DNA of 64,000 bases from Hexactinellida sp. DTS-2022 (lineage: Eukaryota; Porifera; Hexactinellida), in assembly GCA_028753945.1 (NCBI GenBank), contig JAPNXP010000014.1, forward strand, positions 3,410,001-3,474,000. The letters run 5' to 3'. Numbering within the stretch: position 1 is the stretch's first letter; each line of letters opens with the position of its first letter. This document shows, one piece after another, positions 7,197 to 59,676 of the stretch. The position numbers were made by a program, and so were the translations under genes. The notes beneath the pieces are model-generated. The model worked only from the letters and a program-made list of their open reading frames with translations. It was not told where the DNA came from and searched no databases.

Positions 7197-8652
7197 CCAT
7201 CTAAGGTAGAGTGATGATTGGCGTTTATAGAGTGCTGTACAATTGGTATGTAATTTACCCAACACGGATCCCTCTCATTTCTCAACAGAGAACCTAAGAC
7301 CTTTTGAATTTCTTGGTTTAGTCTTTCTACAGAACCTTGGGATTGAGGGTGTCGGGCCTTCCCATGTACAATCTTACAGCCTGGCCACAAAACTCTAATC
7401 ATATTCGCAAGATTTTCTTGAATTCTCGACAATTGTCTAGTGCTGCGAACTGAAACTGAATTAAAACTGTAACTGAATTACAACTGAAATAGTTTTAGCG
7501 ATTTTTCTAAACTGTAACTGTAACTGAAATGTACTCGGTTATAAAACTGTAACTGTAACTGTAACTGAAATGTATTTTTCTCCAACTGAAATTAAAACTG
7601 GAATTGAATTTCTTCAAATTCAATTCCGGTTTGCAGCACTAGTCAGGCGGCACAAAATGAAATTAGAAAAAATGAAACTAGATTATGTTGTCTGCAGACC
7701 TTGGAACCTAGATAAAGCGATTACGATTATTTATTGCATAGAGTATAATAAATATTAGTAATAATTAACTAAGGTTTAGTCGTAAAATAGGTGAAAGTTG
7801 TGAATACCTAACTAAGTACGAAATTGTACTTGACTGTGGTAAAAATTGTAACTGAAATGAAAACTGTAACTGATTAAAACTGTAACTGAAATGAAAACTG
7901 TAACTGTAACTGAATTAAAACTGTAACTGAAATGAAACTAAAACTGTAACTGTAACTGTAACTGTAACTGAATTGAATCAAATTTAATTCCAGTTCGCAG
8001 CACTACAATTGTCGCCCTGAAGTATATAATTGTATGGTCGATTTATCTCATCTGTACTTTGTAAATCAATTAAATCAACCTGTCCTCGAGATGCAAAGTC
8101 TGAACTTCTTATGGGTTTACTAACTGTGCTCTTCAGTGATTTTTTAGTTTTTTTCAGCTGACATTCCACACATGTGTTAACAAAAACTGCAATGAGTTTT
8201 CTAGAAAAGCCACAATAATGCTTCTTTAGCTCCAAATAGAGGCGATCCCTTCCCAGATGTTTGCCTCCTTCTATATGCAAGTTTTCAATTTTATCAAATA
8301 ATTCTTCTTTTGCAAGAAAACGAATTATTTTATTATCCTTCTCAATAGACCTGTATAATAATTTACACGATTGGGTTTGCTTTACTACATAGTTGGATCT
8401 AATTCGATAATATTTTTGTTTTTCTGCTCCTCGATGTGTCGGTTCAGGTCCAGTGTAATTGTTTATGATTTCTGTAAGCTGTTCAGAAAACAAAAAGTTT
8501 CCATTTAGGGAGGGATTCGTGTCAATTATAGCGTTAAATGTTTGTTTCTGTGCATTCATTCGAAATTGATATGATATTTCACTTAGTACGAAGGTATAGA
8601 TTATCTCGTGTATAAGGAGGTCCAAATTGTAATTGAATATTTCCCAATTCAA
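7163..8652 (-). pseudogene. KRBA2/Ginger2-like integrase transposase, deleted and MITE-split
   Basis: The 5' half (8652-8014) has an HHCC module (H126, H132, C161-x2-C164) followed by ASRGQVDLIDLQS with the first catalytic Asp. This wording is typical of KRBA2-like integrases. Coding then runs into a hAT MITE (7438-8005) and resumes with GCKIVHGKARHPQSQGSVERLNQ, the Glu-bearing end of the core. The text flanking the MITE (YNYILQGDNC, then REF) suggests the region between the first Asp and the SDNG motif was deleted before the MITE landed on the second-Asp motif. The frame also shifts after the junction. The 3' end is lost into the G/C-run repeat near 7190. The gene is non-functional. Confidence 0.8.
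7438..8005. mobile_element. hAT MITE with AACTGTAACTG subterminal repeats
   Basis: The 568-bp insertion is flanked by the exact 8-bp duplication CAATTGTC (7430-7437 and 8006-8013). Its inverted ends read TAGTGCTGCGAACTG. The interior consists largely of short iterations of AACTGTAACTGAAATG. An internal copy of the terminus (TTGCAGCACTA, ending 7641) suggests a composite of two related elements. It interrupts the integrase pseudogene. Confidence 0.9.
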
Positions 8653-40994: not shown

Positions 40995-41227
40995 ACGAGC
41001 ACATTTCAAACGCCAATTTGAACCACTTATACATACTCGATTGAATTGACCTTTGTTTTGCTTGAAAGAGGAGATAAAGTGTATCAGGAAAATCCCATAT
41101 TTCACACCAAAGGTGTGAAATTTAGATTTGAAAATTTTAGATAAAATCTCCAATTTTTTCTAAAAGATTGTCCTAACGAGCACATTTCAAACGCCAATTT
41201 GACCCACTATTACAAGCTCGATTGACG
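40995..41227. repeat. direct repeats, left of the RAG1-like element
   Basis: Units beginning ACGAGCACATTTCAAACGCC start at 40995 and 41176 (period 181 bp). The second unit is interrupted at 41227 by the RAG1-like element and continues at 44616. Confidence 0.8.
41223..41227. repeat. 5-bp target-site duplication TGACG (left)
   Basis: TGACG lies directly outside the CACAGTG terminus and is repeated exactly at 44611-44615. Confidence 0.9.
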
Positions 41228-41671
41228 CACAGTGGCTTAAAATCGCAGTTGGTAGGGAATAGATATATGTGTGCACTTTAGCATAATATAATGTATTATT
41301 TGCATATGGGTTATCGATGTTTAGAAACTGATTGATCATATCGAATTTTAGATACATCTCATACTTTGTCTGTTATGACGTCATGATGATTTCACAAATT
41401 TTTTAGAATTATCAAATCTGCTAATTCTTTGGAGTTAGCTTAATACTGTGTATTATTTACATATAGGTTTTCGGGTATTTATAAACTTTTGACACTTTCA
41501 AAATTTCGTATGGCTTCTAATTTGCCAGTTATGACGTCATCCTAAAATTTGTGTTATTTTATTATTTGCATAAACTTTTATTTTTTACAAAATCTTTAGC
41601 GTTATCACAATTACATATATGTAATCTATTTGGGCTATATGATACTAGAGAAATCTAAAGTAAATATCATC

Positions 41672-43670
41672 TTAGTTGTTATATATTAATGATTCAAACA
41701 AAGTTTCAAAATTTGAATTAGAGTCCTTTTGTGCTTTACAGCATTTTGCCCTTCTAGTATTCCCCTGTTCTCCGCAGAATTCACATTTCAGGCTCTTTCT
41801 GAACTTAATTAATACTGGATCGCTCTCAGATGCTAGGCGGACCAAAATATCAATTGTATTGGATTCAAAAGATGTTTTGCGCGCAAGTTGTTCTCGATAT
41901 CTCCTGACCAGCTTGTTGCATGCTTATGTTCCTTCCTCTGAAAAGTTTTTTAGTCCATGACCTGAATTGACATCTCTGACCAGCTCTTCAGAGTGCGCTA
42001 ATACCTTATGAAGTGTTGGAGATATGTTTGCCCATGGGAAGAAATCTAATATTAGAATATATGTATCCTTGCACAGCTCTCCAAGGATTTTAGTTTTGAT
42101 CTTTTTACTTGAATTATAAATACGAAGTATTACACCGAGCTGTGTATGGATTCGTGTAAGTACAGACCTGTGCTGACTTTCAACAACTGTCAGTATGCAA
42201 TCAATGAAACTAGCATCCTCTGAAAATGCGCGTCTTGCAAGATTACCAGTAGATGTCGTTCCACCTCTTGAATCAGGTTGATCAATTCTTAATCCGGTTT
42301 TTTCGTGGACTAATGTCCTAACAAATTCCATCGACTGTTTAATCGCCGGAATGTTGGCGCCCATTTAACTTTACCACACTGCAGGTGATAAACAAGTAGA
42401 TTGAACCATCTAAATTTGGAAAAAATTGTTAATGTTAATCATAATGTGAATTTGTTAATGGCTTACCTAAATATGCACGTATAAGAATGAAGTGGAGATG
42501 CGGAATTGATATCAATCGTTGTAATCGGTTCGTGGGTCAAATTAAAGCGATCATTTGAAGGGAGCGTGAAGAATTCTTGAACATTTTCCAATTCACTGAA
42601 AATTTCAATAGCATCAGTGATGTGTCTATTTATCGGGAATCCTTATAGGACTAGCTCACGGTCCTTAAGATCACTATGAGTTGCTGTGCACATCTGACAG
42701 CTTGCTCCCCCAGCACCAGATAGAATCGCCGACATTTTCCCATCAAACATGGATCGAATAATTTCAACATCTACTTTACCTTCCGGTAAAGTCAGGCCAT
42801 TTTCTTTCATTTCATCTGTATCAGGATTGATCAAACTTGACATTAGGCTCCGAATGTTCGCTTCACTTTCTTTCGCAGCACAGAGGAATATTGGCCTTTG
42901 ACTAAAGGGGGAATTTGGGATATCATTTTCCCAAAAGAGCTGACCAGACTTTGAACGAATTGAGATGGGTTTAAAGCAAAAGAGAATAAAAATTTTGGTA
43001 GCTGTATTGGTCTTCTCTTGATTATAGATAACATGACTACCGGAACCATCCAGTCCATCTGAAATCTGGAATACGAGTGGGAAATCATCAATTTGGCATT
43101 CAGATAAAGTACCTAAATACGTTCTAATGTGTGTTGTACAAAAACTCGATAAGGGTAGTAAACGCCTATAGGATTAGCAGGGTCAGGGTAGAACTGGATC
43201 GTAGACTTTAAGATCAATTCGCTTCTTAATTCCGCAACTTTATTATATGCGGGAAAATGCACAAAATCAGAGATGAGTAATTGTCTTAATCGTGTGTACA
43301 CGTACTTTCGTTTTCCTATTTCCAGGGCATCAAGGAGAAACAAAGACTTTTCAAGTGAGATTTGACTGTGTACTAGTTTCCCAAATTCTCCATCATAAGC
43401 TATTTTCTTAGCTACATTGGCTACTTTTCGGTCATCCACCTCGTTGGATAATAGCTGCAAGGCAATAGCAGCTATAGTAGATGGCGGTGTATTTTCAGCT
43501 TCAGCAGACGCTCTAATACATGATAATACTGCTGCTAATCGAGTGCGTTGCTGCTTGTAAGTTAGAGATTCAAGAGACTTACGTCTAGATAACGTAACTG
43601 AACCATCTTCTTGACTTACTGATGCTAATGGTTTGAGGGATGTTAGGCAGAGCTTTTTTGAGATTGGCAT
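41672..43670 (-). pseudogene. RAG1-core-like (Transib superfamily) transposase, broken
   Basis: Aligned by eye to the RAG1 core as I know it. The first catalytic Asp (RAG1 D600) falls in QISDGLDGSGSHVIYNQ (codon 43057-43059). The second (D708) falls in RSMFDGKMSAILSG (42742-42744). The zinc Cys pair follows as ASCQMCTA. GGTTSTGNLARRAF matches the 'GNFARK' segment. SPTLHKVLAHSEELV carries both zinc His residues. FSEEG gives the third acidic residue (E962; 41936-41938), followed by ACNKLVRRYREQLARKTS. A Cys-rich tail (CEFCGEQGN...AKCC) ends at the stop 41672-41674. The N-terminal third (from 43670, MPISKKLC) reads as protein but is unassigned. Lesions are a frameshift near 43115, an in-frame stop at 42643-42645, a frameshift near 42355 and an in-frame stop at 41924-41926. 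A GT-AG intron lies at 42410-42466. Confidence 0.9.
42410..42466 (-). other. 57-bp spliceosomal intron in the transposase
   Basis: On the minus strand it starts GTAAGCC and ends TTTTTCCAAATTTAG. Joining the flanks gives CIF-RWFNLLVYHLQCGK in one frame, and the intron itself contains stops. Its small size hints at the host's minimum intron length. Confidence 0.75.
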
Positions 43671-43769
43671 TTGCCAAGGGATTTCACAATTCTACCACTC
43701 CCCGCTAAGGTTTTCGACCGACTTCTTTGATGATTGAATATTTCTATGGATCTTTGAAATTAACGAGAA

Positions 43770-43973
43770 TTACGAATCCATCTTATCATCGTGTATATCA
43801 ATAATTTTTGTTACTTCCGCAATTGTTTTGCGAACATCAAAGCCATTTCTCTGTAAGATAACAGCCAGATCAAGTCTTGTTTTTGGAATAATAGTACTAG
43901 CTGCCATACTGTAATTGACCTTTATGTATAATATTTTTGCAAAAGCTAAAACGCTAATTGTTTCTTTTATCAA
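43770..43973 (-). CDS. short ORF at the 5' side of the RAG1-like gene
   Basis: This 67-residue frame contains MAASTIIPKTRLDLAVILQR and KTIAEVTKIIDIHDDKMDS. It lies about 100 bp upstream of the main transposase frame, inside the same element. It may be a first exon, but no splice pair was confirmed. It could also be chance. Confidence 0.35.
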   Translation of the reverse strand: MIKETISVLAFAKILYIKVNYSMAASTIIPKTRLDLAVILQRNGFDVRKTIAEVTKIIDIHDDKMDS

Positions 43974-44610
43974 TGAGTAGCAATATGCAATATATAGTAT
44001 TGCACATGTTATATTTGAGAATTTAATTAATTAAAAATACCCAATAGTAAATGTAATTGCCTAGTTACATGAAGCTCGGCATGGAATGTGAACTGAAAAA
44101 CCATGTTGCGCAATGAAGCGGGGGCTATGATTTTGATATTTCATCAATGGTAAATACAAAGTCATGTAGAAGAATTTCTAGCCTGGTATGAGCTGGTATA
44201 AAAATTTCCGGCTTTCACACATCTTACCTTGTCGTTTTTCAGTTCAAATGAAATTTATCAAAATTTAAACTGTCCAAGTCCAGAAAATTCTATGAATTGA
44301 GTAAGATAATTGGTAAATTTGAACTCAGCATGCATTAATTATATAAGTTAAGGAAATTAGAAGAACTATCTCGGTGGATATTGAAAGAAATAAAACTCAA
44401 AGTCACGCTGATTCATAATATAATATTTCACTTTTTTGATTGCATCATATCCGCAGTCTTACTTTCTCCATTTCATCCATTTATATGCATTAGATTCAAT
44501 TGAAATTTCTAATATAATGCAATAAGACTATATAGTTGCTTTCTAAATAATAAATACTAATATATATGACTATGAAAATAATTCCTATTCCCTGCTACGA
44601 AGCCACTGTG

Positions 44611-44820
44611 TGACGCAACCTTTGTTTTGCTCAAAGAGGGGAAAAAGGGGAATAGGAATATCCGATATTTCATAAAAAAGGTGTTAAATTTGGAATCTTT
44701 TCAAAAAGTTTGTTCCAACGAGCACACTTCAAACGCCAATTTGACCCATTATTACATGATTATTGACTATATTTTTGTTTTGCTTGAAAAACGGGATAAA
44801 ATGGATTAGGAATTGAGCCT
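44611..44820. repeat. 5-bp duplication and continuing direct repeats, right side
   Basis: TGACG (44611-44615) is followed by the rest of the unit interrupted at 41227 (CAACCTTTGTTTTGCTCAAA). A further unit starts with ACGAGCACACTTCAAACGCC at 44718. Confidence 0.85.
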
Positions 44821-45169: not shown

Positions 45170-45763
45170 GTTTTGACAAAAAGTGTCCGGCTACAAAAAC
45201 TGTCCGGCCGGACAGTTTTTGTCAAATTTAGCAAAAAACGTTGTTTTGACAAAAACTGTCCGCCGGACACTTTTTGTCAAACACTAAATACAATCCTGAA
45301 TATCCGGATTTTTCGATTATCCGGGAACCCTTGGTTAATTTAATACAATGTGTTTATCCTAATTATCCCAACTTGTTTTGAGTAATCCCAAAGAGTGCGG
45401 ATGATCAAGGTTATACTGTATTAGATTATTAGAGGAGTTAGAACAAAGTTAGATTCTCACTTGTCATTTTCTAGTACTATACGTATTTACTGTATTATCA
45501 CAGATTCTCTTTCTTGCGTAATATGCTGAAAAATATAAGAAAAATATTAAGTTTTTGTAGGCAATTTTTTTTGCTAAATGTGACAAAAACTGTCTGGCCG
45601 GACAGTTTTTGTAGCCGGACAGTTTTTGTCAAAACAACATTTTTTGCTAAATTTGACAAAAACTGTCCGGCCGGACACTTCTTGTCACAACAACATTTTT
45701 GCTAAATTTGACAAAAACTGTCCGGCCGGACAGTTTTTGTAGCCGGACACTTTTTGTCAAAAC
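45170..45763. mobile_element. GTCCGG palindromic element
   Basis: The ends read GTTTTGACAAAAAGTGTCCGG and its inverse. Between them, many copies of ACAAAAACTGTCCGGCCGGACAG-type palindromes alternate with TTTGCTAAATTTGAC spacers. No ORF is recognised; the plus ORF at 45514-45705 is a shadow of the repeats. A pogo-type MITE is nested at 45291-45418. Confidence 0.7.
45291..45418. mobile_element. pogo-type MITE
   Basis: 128 bp between TA dinucleotides (45289-45290, 45419-45420). Starts CAATCCTGAATATCCGGAT and ends GATGATCAAGGTTATACTG. The ends are CAAT/ACTG, and the match is diverged. Confidence 0.65.
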
Positions 45764-56385: not shown

Positions 56386-57369
56386 ACTTTATTTAAACTA
56401 CTAAGTGTTCAAAAATATATTGCAAAAAATATGGTATGTCGAATATGCATAAAGGAATGTTGTTATAAACAAATCTATAATCTAAAATGTTTCTAATTGA
56501 TAATTTGACAATATTTCAAACATAATTCACTATCTACAAAATGGACTACGTTGATGCTTATCTGAACGACATATCACAGTGGGAATTTAGGTGGAATAGG
56601 ATAAAAATATCATTCTCTTGAAACTTGAATTCGTGGTTACCACGGAATTCAAAATATCAAATAACCTAGTAATGCATAATTTCATTCTGATCTAAGAAAT
56701 ATTTTGGTTGTTATGACAATTCAAAGTATTGGATTTTTGACAATTGGAATTTCTATTTTGCGGTTAAAGAAAGTTACTAATGCTTCATTGCAGATTTTGA
56801 GAACACTGTTCTTGAGAATGACTTCTCTTTTGAATATTCTGATATACATGGTTTAATTATATATATTAGAAATCATGATAACATCTCAGTATAAATTGAT
56901 TAAGGGATGTGGCTAACGGAAAATATACGATTCGGACAATAAATTCTTGCTTAGACCCCTCCTTCAGGTGATGGGAAATATCGTGTCATGGCTCATGCGG
57001 GTTTTATAGTGTTTTAATATAAAGTAGACATATTTAACTTCAATATAAACCAAATTCCAGATGCGCAAAAATTTGCACACAGATATTTTCTTTTAATATT
57101 AATTAATTTATTAAGATAAGTGATTCAATTACAAACTATACTCTTTCAATTAAAATTATTTTCTATGCGTTACAGGGAAGCTTTGGAATTTCTTGACTCG
57201 AATCCAGTGAGTTATGGATTACGATTAATTAGATTCTGACTAATATCAAACAATTCGATGTCAATTTGATGAATTAAAGTTTAGCAGGGAGCTGAACTGT
57301 CGGCAAATTAGTGGAAACATACTTTTTACATACTGAGATCTCAACAATATTGTCAAAACTGGGTTCTAG
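56386..57369. other. no supported gene
   Basis: AT-rich; nothing recognised. Confidence 0.4.
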
Positions 57370-57375
57370 ACACTG

Positions 57376-58380
57376 TTGCAGGGTGAAATCAAATCATTTT
57401 GATCTGAAAAATCAATCAATTTATGAACTGATTTGATCGAGTTATTCAATAGAAATGATTGAACTGATTGAACTGCCTACAATTTGAAATGATCTGAAAC
57501 TGATCTGAAAATGAGTTTTTGATCTGAAAATGAGTTTTTTATCTTGGGAACTGAATATTATCATTTATTTGATGTTACACGTATAACATTCAAATGCAAT
57601 TCTTTTCTTTTATTTAATCTAAGATTCCATGTAGTATATCTTTTAGTGTAATTAATATGGATTTAGTAGAATACAAGATAAATTAATTTTGATCTAAAAA
57701 TGAGTTTTTGATCTGAAAATGAACTTTTGATCTGAAAATGAAGTTTAAGTATATACAATGGAACCCCGCGTATCGGGGCACCTCCGTCCAAGCGCTCAGC
57801 GCCCCGATACGAGGGAGTGCCCCGATACGCGGGGTTCTAAGAAAACTCCAATATGTTTGGTTAAAACAATTAAGTTAGCACCTACACAACAAATCATACA
57901 CATATAGTCAAAACCTAGAGTTAAGGCTGATATTTAAGCAGTACTACACATTACAATTTCACATTATACTTTACCTACACTAGGAGTCACAAATCTATGA
58001 TATTAACGGAATTTCTTTTTGAAAAACTCCCCCGATTACCTCAGCACGAGTCTCTAGCGTGAGTGGGTGACGCTTAGCGGCCATTACAAAGAATACTAAG
58101 CTGCTCAAAAGTAAAAAGCATGTTACTCAAGAGAAATAATCTTCGGTGGAGTGCCCCGATAAGTGAATGGCGCCCCGATACGCGGGGTTATTTTTAATGG
58201 GAAAAAACCAAATTCCCAACCAACTGCCCCGATACGCGAGTGCCCCGATACGCGGGGTTCCACTGTATTGATTTGAGTTGATCGATTTAGAAAAGTTAAA
58301 TAATTGAACTGATTGAACTTCCCTTGCAATATATGATTAATCTGAAAATATAATGAACTAAATATACTCATTAAATGATC
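57376..58380. repeat. GATCTGAAAATGAG low-complexity element split by a pogo-type element
   Basis: It starts CAGGGTGAAATCAAATCATT and continues with iterated GATCTGAAAATGAGTTTTT and ATTGAACTGATTGAACTG. The same text resumes after 58265. It resembles the word-repeat hAT MITEs at 7.4 and 52.2 kb, but a right terminus and duplication were not found. Confidence 0.5.
57756..58265. mobile_element. pogo-type element, ~0.5 kb
   Basis: Flanked by TA on both sides. Ends CAATGGAACCCCGCGTATCG and CGATACGCGGGGTTCCACTG. GCCCCGATACGCGGGG words are iterated near both ends. The minus ORF at 58123-58371 is a shadow. Confidence 0.88.
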
Positions 58381-59676
58381 TGTGACCGTTCACTGGTTCT
58401 AGTAGCTCTAAAACCTAGGTGATGTAATATTCTTATAAAAAGTTTCTAAATGCGCGAAAAGGCGAGACGTGGGTCACTTAATAACTTTGAACTATATATA
58501 TTAGGATTTTTGAAAAAAATACACCTTGATCAAGAAATATAATCAATAATCATGGGTGAACAATAAAAAAATTGTTAACAAACCTAAAGTATGGCTCGAC
58601 TCACACCTTCACTAATAACGTCCCCTTCAAATCCATACATATATCAGTTTTAGCCCCATCTATAATGATGATAAATCCGCAATCAACTTGAATTCGAATA
58701 ATATTCGCTCGAGTGATTGATTTTAGTTCCATAATGCGTAGTATTAAATTCCTATACCTGACTAAAATTAAGAAAATAGTTACTACAAAAAAATGATAGA
58801 ATTTTAAGAGTTGTTTCAGGATTAGATATCATCTAGGTATAGTAACGCTATTATGAGTACTATTTTTGAATTGAATCATAAGCATAATATTGTATAATCA
58901 CGCTTCAAAGTGAAATTAGTAAATTTCCAATGATTATTTTGCATTTTTCGGATTCAACACTTACTACAAGTAATTGAATGCCTTAAGAATAACTTAAATA
59001 GGACTCATTGGAACTTCTCTATATACTCGATAATCCTGAACTGTAAAATCATCATTTACTTGAAAGCAACTTATTATTTAGGCGAAGGATTGGTTTTGAT
59101 TGAAAATTATCAGTGTATTTATATTGTAATACAGTTTTCCTATATATATATACACTTTATTCAGTATTAATCGAATATTGTGGTTATATAATATTGTTAA
59201 ATTAGTATTATGCAATTGTTTACTCTTAAGTTATGAAGTATTAAGCAATAAAAATTAGATAATTTAGCTATAAATTGTGACGAAATCTCCACCAAATTTT
59301 GTATTACGTCAGTGGCGCAAAGTGGCGCAAGGTGGTATATTTCCTAAAGTATTTGGAATTTCTGGATGAAAATTTCTGTGAATATACCCCATCTATAGAG
59401 CATGCGGAATATGCAATAATATGCATTTAATCATTGCCCTGGGCCTCCGTCCTGAAGGTGTGGGTCGAGCCTTATGACAGAATTAACATGAATTGTCTAG
59501 AACTACGTTTAGGAGACTACGTACATCATTTTTGATAATGCCATTCAGTTTGTAGCTACCGATAACCTATATGTCAATAATACTTCAATAGAGTCTATAT
59601 AGCATAGTTTTTCCTATTTCCACTTACACCCCTGAAATTCCCACTGTGCATATCACACCAATTCTTCAACAACAAT
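58381..59676. other. no supported gene
   Basis: AT-rich. An old dispersed repeat shared with 19376-19460 lies at 59530-59620. Confidence 0.4.

Follow-up and report, generated by a model that had tools for sequence, protein, structure and literature searches.

On its minus strand the window (the whole stretch of 64,000 nucleotides analyzed here, from a glass sponge) carries what is very probably, on the strength of sequence comparisons, a degenerate copy of a RAG1/Transib-superfamily transposon, of the cut-and-paste kind and with a single gene, which fits the Subgroup I Transibs of Tao et al. 2022 (PMC9435367). A combined scan for terminal inverted repeats (TIRs) and target site duplications (TSDs) delimits a full-length element of 3383 bp at 41228-44610 (minus strand), with the heptamer CACAGTG at each terminus and a perfect 5-bp duplication, CGTCA, immediately outside (left copy at 44611-44615, right copy at 41223-41227). 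The first-pass annotation of this DNA had restricted the feature to 41672-43670, which is too short, the start codon lying at 43907 and the whole element extending further on both sides. All the motifs that it had named in RAG1 order on the minus strand are present in that interval and in that order. The transposase begins with an N-terminal part at 43116-43907, which includes the start codon and, at approximately 43380-43583, a region that a family profile run against PDB identifies as a RAG1-type nonamer-binding domain (NBD). The remainder comprises an RNase H part at 42643-43173 with SDGLDGSG, MFDGKM and the zinc pair CQMC; a zinc-domain insert region at 42463-42642, which by length and alignment appears to be the counterpart of the alpha11-alpha12 stretch of RAG1; a C-terminal catalytic part at 41924-42364 with GNLARR, the zinc pair LHKVLAH and FSEEG; and a C-terminal zinc knuckle (CTT1 or CCGHC) at 41741-41785, all on the minus strand.

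The same annotation had taken the feature for a dead copy with two in-frame stops and two frameshifts. The copy is indeed dead and the frameshift count stands (one frame change between about 43173 and 43113, the other near 42340), but there are four in-frame stops, at 43770 and 43692 in the N-terminal part and at 42643 and 41924; nor does the description extend to the family, of which intact copies exist elsewhere in the genome. The C-terminal CCHC knuckle has lost its histidine to asparagine (CEFCGEQGN). A 57-bp GT..AG insert at 42410-42466 (minus strand) splits CIFR from WFN exactly, at a point where other copies are uninterrupted. It is flanked on both sides by TTTAG, as if it had been gained with a short duplication, and looks like a recent intron gain within the transposase gene. 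A close sister copy on contig C14 has a 45-bp version of it, and the opening 24 bases of the insert, used as a query, recovered the window copy, the C14 sister and one further site with two mismatches. A second element of the family lies at 56575-59648 (plus strand); it is without transposase similarity and has a short-type left end (20 bp), a long-type right end (30 bp) and the TSD CATAT. Elsewhere the window has tandem repeats around GCCGGACAGTTTTTGT, in units of 17 and 55 bp (45597-45757 and 45176-45208); upstream of them lies an inverted array. Neither Rfam, searched with the window, nor NCBIfam gave a match.

The identification as a RAG1-core-like transposase, already made in the first-pass annotation, is borne out by profile, Pfam and PDB matches and by the 5-bp TSDs with CACAGTG ends. 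The profile search proposed there as a check leads to HzTransib, RAG1L and RAG1: a profile of 19 sponge-type proteins run against PDB recovered HzTransib (E = 4.2e-45), the amphioxus RAG1L (BbRAG1L, 1.3e-19) and RAG1 (1.9e-17). The window RNase H piece alone also has HzTransib as its best PDB match (E = 0.001), followed by amphioxus RAG1L (0.11) and RAG1 (at least 0.7), and the C-terminal piece alone again finds HzTransib best (0.0036), the next matches being unrelated ribosomal proteins (0.03). Six single window pieces scanned against Pfam gave no RAG1 match. An intact sister protein, P0001 (723 aa), matches Pfam RAG1 at 1.7e-9, over the curated cut-off; among the 12 proteins scanned (ten sponge-type, two HzTransib-like) ten match this family at E <= 0.0023, five at or above the cut-off and five below it, and two sponge-type proteins, P0026 and P0040, gave no Pfam RAG1 match at E <= 0.1. 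Many of the hits carry PF26100 as a precomputed Pfam label. Because the window pieces, the intact sister and the family profile all match, the resemblance of the window copy to HzTransib and RAG1 is not due to chance, and its membership of the RAG1/Transib superfamily is supported. The profile alignments superimpose on RAG1 positions the aspartates of LDG and FDGKM, the CxxC and HxxxxH pairs and the second E of SEE, the three acidic residues being those which we take to be D600, D708 and E962. The D600 position is thus recognizable, as had been claimed, but the precise residue has to be corrected to the second D of SDGLDGSG according to these alignments. Both aspartates and the CxxC pair are invariant in the 19 aligned rows, and the H..H pair and the glutamate are conserved in at least 90% of them (P0059 stops short of these positions).

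The earlier suggestion of a distinct branch is likewise supported. An unrooted 53-row tree places all 31 sponge-type proteins on their own side of a well supported branch (99/97) and also groups 20 HzTransib-like proteins (100/100), this label denoting the set obtained in a search with a HzTransib fragment, most hits of which are without an organism name; two RAG fragments form long branches apart from the sponge-type group. Since the tree comprises no Subgroup I reference sequences, affiliation with the Subgroup I Transibs is argued here from features. Run against PDB, a profile confined to the NBD region (14 of 19 sponge-type rows, 87 positions) matched 16 sequences at E <= 10; every one is a RAG1, the best being 3gna (2.7e-5, profile positions 7-60), a nonamer-binding domain bound to DNA. 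The corresponding profile of HzTransib-like proteins (13 of 15 rows) gave two PDB matches, neither of which is RAG1. The likeness to the RAG1 NBD suffices for a direct match with sponge-type proteins but not with HzTransib-like ones. An NBD equivalent with a few conserved positions is described for both Transib subgroups (PMC9435367). The zinc region, taken from CxxC to SPLH, spans 61-64 aa in sponge-type proteins (63 of 111, measurable by motif) as against 27-28 aa in HzTransib-like proteins (83 of the 120 listed), and aligns with BbRAG1L throughout, as judged from length and alignment. The alpha11-alpha12 stretch is lost in Subgroup II (PMC9435367), and the long region of the sponge-type proteins is as would be expected from this stretch. 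The knuckle, counted with the relaxed pattern CX2CX3GHX3-6C (the CTT1 of Subgroup I is CX2CX3GHX4C), occurs in 21 of the 41 tails of sponge-type proteins and in none of the 106 HzTransib-like tails; the 20 sponge-type tails without it include some with a near form and some sub-branches with none, and also P0040, whose tail was drawn from the wrong place and scored as lacking it. Asymmetric ends, by which Subgroup I is likewise recognized, are present in the sponge family, and all Subgroup I Transibs have asymmetric TIRs (PMC9435367).

Taken by these features, the sponge-type family probably fits the Subgroup I Transibs of PMC9435367, so that the branch itself would not be new. The two are alike in their single transposase gene, asymmetric TIRs, long zinc region, CTT1, NBD equivalent and want of a RAG2L. 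They differ in that several sponge sub-branches are without the CTT1 knuckle, the copy number in the sponge is high, and the extended right end of the sponge family is absent from the main text of PMC9435367. No sponge figures among the main-text hosts of that study; for other metazoans it speaks of Transibs by the hundred, detailed in its supplement. There was no paper on sponge Transibs by title among the literature matches listed, and the hundreds of metazoan Transibs of PMC9435367 may include them.

The genome assembly (112.4 Mb, 18 contigs) was searched with the window RNase H piece, a first look giving 452 candidates; there are at least 150 transposase matches, and 13 of the 150 listed lie in an open frame of at least 700 aa with no stop within the match. 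Three copies (L022, L023 and L026) are more than 99.2% identical over 3.66 kb in three places, two of them with perfect, differing TSDs. The family has been active recently, because near-identical copies occupy different sites and open frames persist. Element limits were obtained by comparing near-identical triplets and pairs, followed by the TIR and TSD scan; a BLAST inverted-repeat search missed the short ends. Of 21 regions, 13 (the window copy included) have paired TIRs flanked by a perfect 5-bp TSD, in L030 four of five TSD positions agree, and seven gave no such pair. Among 14 further elements, 11 have a perfect 5-bp TSD and one each agrees at 4, 3 and 0 of 5 positions; two of these, of about 4.2 kb, surround transposase matches, and twelve, of 1.0-1.3 kb, are too short for the gene and are likely to be deletion derivatives. 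The G+C content of 14 perfect TSDs is mildly enriched (43% vs about 34% in the window).

Besides the transposase, no ORF above 110 aa is common to more than two of the 21 regions, and this shared-ORF comparison found no RAG2-like gene within the elements. Several copies are followed by ORFs of 200-260 aa, which were considered as a partner gene and rejected, as on clustering none was common to more than two regions. The genome, searched for the RAG2 family, yielded no match, the positive control likewise being without a match anywhere. Related ORFs of about 150-200 aa lie beside RAG-like copies, outside the element, in L022 (reverse complement, 1360-1965 and 7573-8178) and L017; they probably belong to another transposable element. 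The sponge-type proteins P0001 and P0007 (712 aa) have about 100 aa N-terminal to the NBD region, and Pfam detected no RING domain in sponge-type proteins. Protein searches with two sponge-type queries gave 59 and 103 hits, most of them without an organism name and the named ones all from Oopsacas minuta, a glass sponge, and that with the HzTransib fragment gave 1362 hits, the named ones among the 120 listed being insects; each search scored 8000 candidates, and the host range of the sponge-type proteins may extend to other animals. A scan of prokaryote genomes recovered a single locus, a fragment (L031:1-99) with 79% identity to the sponge-type transposase, at the edge of a contig in a Candidatus Paceibacter MAG, which is probably sponge DNA in a bacterial bin.

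Both termini of the family elements are CACAGTG, the consensus heptamer of the recombination signal sequences (RSSs) of antibody genes. The window element has a left (5') end at 44576-44610, in which the box AATAGG starts 21 bp in (short type), and a right (3') end at 41228-41272, in which AATAG starts 30 bp in (long type), both on the minus strand. The fetched loci and the window together hold 60 occurrences of the heptamer (24 records, with L001-L007, which are nested in others, left out and near-identical copies counted singly). In 34 of these it is followed by AATAG preceded by A, C or G, and the first such box starts at 20 bp (3 cases), 21 bp (10), 30 bp (14), 31 bp (6) or 12 bp (1) and at no other position. 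Genome-wide, CACAGTGG followed by AATAGG across a gap of 5-35 nucleotides occurs at 586 sites, as against 28 for the reversed control. The short class (N12-13) accounts for 193 sites (control 11) and the long class (N22-23) for 341 (control 0); 33 sites have an in-between spacing (N14-21; control 9), and by subtraction the remaining 19 fall elsewhere. L027 is an exception with its boxes at 17 and 31 bp, and in L012, L025, L028 and L030 the box has to be read, by eye, as a variant. In an RSS the nonamer begins at an offset of 19 or 30 bp (7+12 and 7+23); the long class of the family agrees with the second value, and the short class exceeds the first by 1-2 bp. The start of the box depends on how the box is drawn, but the offset of about 9-11 bp between short and long ends does not.

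The two kinds of end are distributed in a regular manner. Where the elements of the TIR and TSD scan have an exact box at each terminus, it is the short end that lies on the 5' side of the gene. When the sites listed for C1-C4 and the beginning of C5 (62 short, 100 long) were paired, all 34 adjacent convergent pairs within 5 kb proved to combine a short with a long end, as against a mean of 16.1 and a maximum of 26 in 10,000 label shuffles; adjacent pairs in other orientations numbered six. Common descent from one ancestor may explain this uniform pairing.

The right end is more extended than the left. In a gapless comparison of ten copies of different subfamilies, laid from each terminus, conservation reaches about 35-60 bp on the left and about 160 bp on the right, where a third box occupies about 62-91 bp, a fourth about 98-108 bp and TGACGTCA lies 154-156 bp from the terminus. 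In the window copy the third box, ATRTATTATTNNNNTATRGGTTATCG, is at 41291-41316 (minus strand), 63 bp from the heptamer, and the palindrome TGACGTCA at 41376-41383 (minus strand), 155 bp from the right terminus. Both are doubled in the window, the third box at 41278-41316 and 41435-41473 (spacing 157 bp) and TGACGTCA at 41376-41383 and 41532-41539 (spacing 156 bp). With at most one mismatch the third box occurs at 273 sites genome-wide and at none in the control; on C1-C3, 35 of its 58 sites are without an exact long-type end alongside. The main text of PMC9435367 makes no mention of such additional right-end boxes, nor do the accessible portions of PMC7204232, PMC8289069, PMC8355894, PMC4411706 and PMC11844651; among the matches listed in a literature search on Transib subterminal sequences none was about Transib by title.

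These features suggest how the element may have worked. A transposase dimer would cut at the heptamers by way of a nick and a hairpin and insert with a 5-bp stagger; the heptamer would be read by the RNase H core and the second box by the NBD. The difference in spacing of about one helical turn (20-21 vs 30-31 bp) would then cause one short end to be paired with one long end, as under the 12/23 rule of RAG1, and the extended right end would offer extra sites for the transposase or a host protein. Tentatively, we propose that a sponge transposon may apply a RAG2-free rule of the 12/23 type through a RAG1-type NBD, a rule which would be older than RAG2 and the bilaterians, and that its long-type end may be a 160-bp multi-site end, possibly bound at TGACGTCA by a host bZIP protein.

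Other readings have to be weighed against this picture. The family might descend from a RAGL element (RAG1L with RAG2L) that lost its RAG2L and so belong to the RAG clan rather than to Transib. The RAG1L-like zinc region, the CCGHC tail and the RAG1-type NBD would agree with such a loss; yet the proteins score nearer to HzTransib than to RAG1L or RAG1, their length of about 710-757 aa, their start some 100 aa ahead of the NBD and the absence of a RING domain in Pfam imply that there is no RAG1 non-core N-terminus, and the lack of any second shared ORF above 110 aa in more than two of the 21 regions tells in the same direction, so that we regard this origin as quite improbable. A subtler objection bears on the ends: the short/long asymmetry could be a frozen accident inherited from one ancestral element, with the spacing devoid of function. 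All copies are related, and the one-kb ones are likely deletion derivatives, as such an account would have it. However, the spacing has stayed constant while the box and the sequence between the boxes shift in parallel at both ends from subfamily to subfamily, this constancy spans transposases of the same genome that are only 38-60% identical to P0001, and the left end is little conserved beyond about 60 bp; we accordingly think it unlikely that the spacing is a mere relic.

With regard to the right-end boxes (62-157 bp), there is some chance that they belong to the 3' UTR of the transposase gene or act as an expression signal instead of as transposition sites. The boxes follow the stop codon, and the TGACGTCA palindrome 154-156 bp from the terminus is present in 13 of 16 elements with a transposase (eight exact, five with one mismatch; L039, with a TSD of 3 of 5, is not counted) and absent from L018, L019 and L021, from all 11 one-kb copies and from the element at 56575. 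Likewise, only 22 of the 71 listed long-type ends on C1-C3 have the third box at 62-64 bp, the other 49 being without it at one mismatch. Against this, the third box accompanies long-type ends only, none of the 49 listed short-type ends on C1-C3 having it within 400 bp, and gene-less copies retain it or a near form at about the same position. Because of this retention we infer that the third box is a putative transposition site; TGACGTCA is possibly a host-factor or expression site.

Comparison with known systems places the transposon, in our preferred reading a Subgroup I-type Transib, among several partial likenesses. The AanRAGL element of Aureococcus has two conserved elements per end with spacers of 4 and 13 bp, i.e. 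a 9-bp offset close to that of the sponge, and differs in having a RAG2L and in the sequences of its first (CACACCCAAACCT) and second (CCTCAAYAYG) elements (PMC9435367). HzTransib and similar elements of the Subgroup II type share the catalytic core, the 5-bp TSD and the single gene; unlike the sponge family they have a short zinc region, no CCGHC tail and an N-terminus without detectable RAG1 NBD likeness, and the TIRs of HzTransib are symmetric according to the accessible part of PMC8289069. With ProtoRAG/RAGL and with vertebrate RAG1 and its 12/23 RSSs the family shares the CACAGTG heptamer, bipartite asymmetric signals, the NBD and the long zinc region, whereas its elements contain no RAG2 and its proteins no non-core N-terminus; its second box is AATAGG as opposed to the A-rich nonamer of the RSS, with start offsets of 20-21/30-31 as opposed to 19/30. 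In ProtoRAG the spacing is 27/31 and both ends are needed (PMC8289069, in the portion available), and spacing of the 12/23 type is known in a few Transibs and not in RAGL elements, as stated in the accessible portion of PMC8355894.

Asymmetric ends as such are already known. The sponge family contributes a very large natural sample from an early-branching animal, which combines the exact RSS heptamer with a recognizable RAG1-type NBD, elements free of RAG2, recent activity and an extended right end. The origin of signal asymmetry in V(D)J recombination remains a matter of debate, and the sponge family provides a natural test bed for it: with hundreds of natural short and long ends and with intact, recently moved copies, it becomes testable whether spacer asymmetry can be read by a RAG1-type protein alone.
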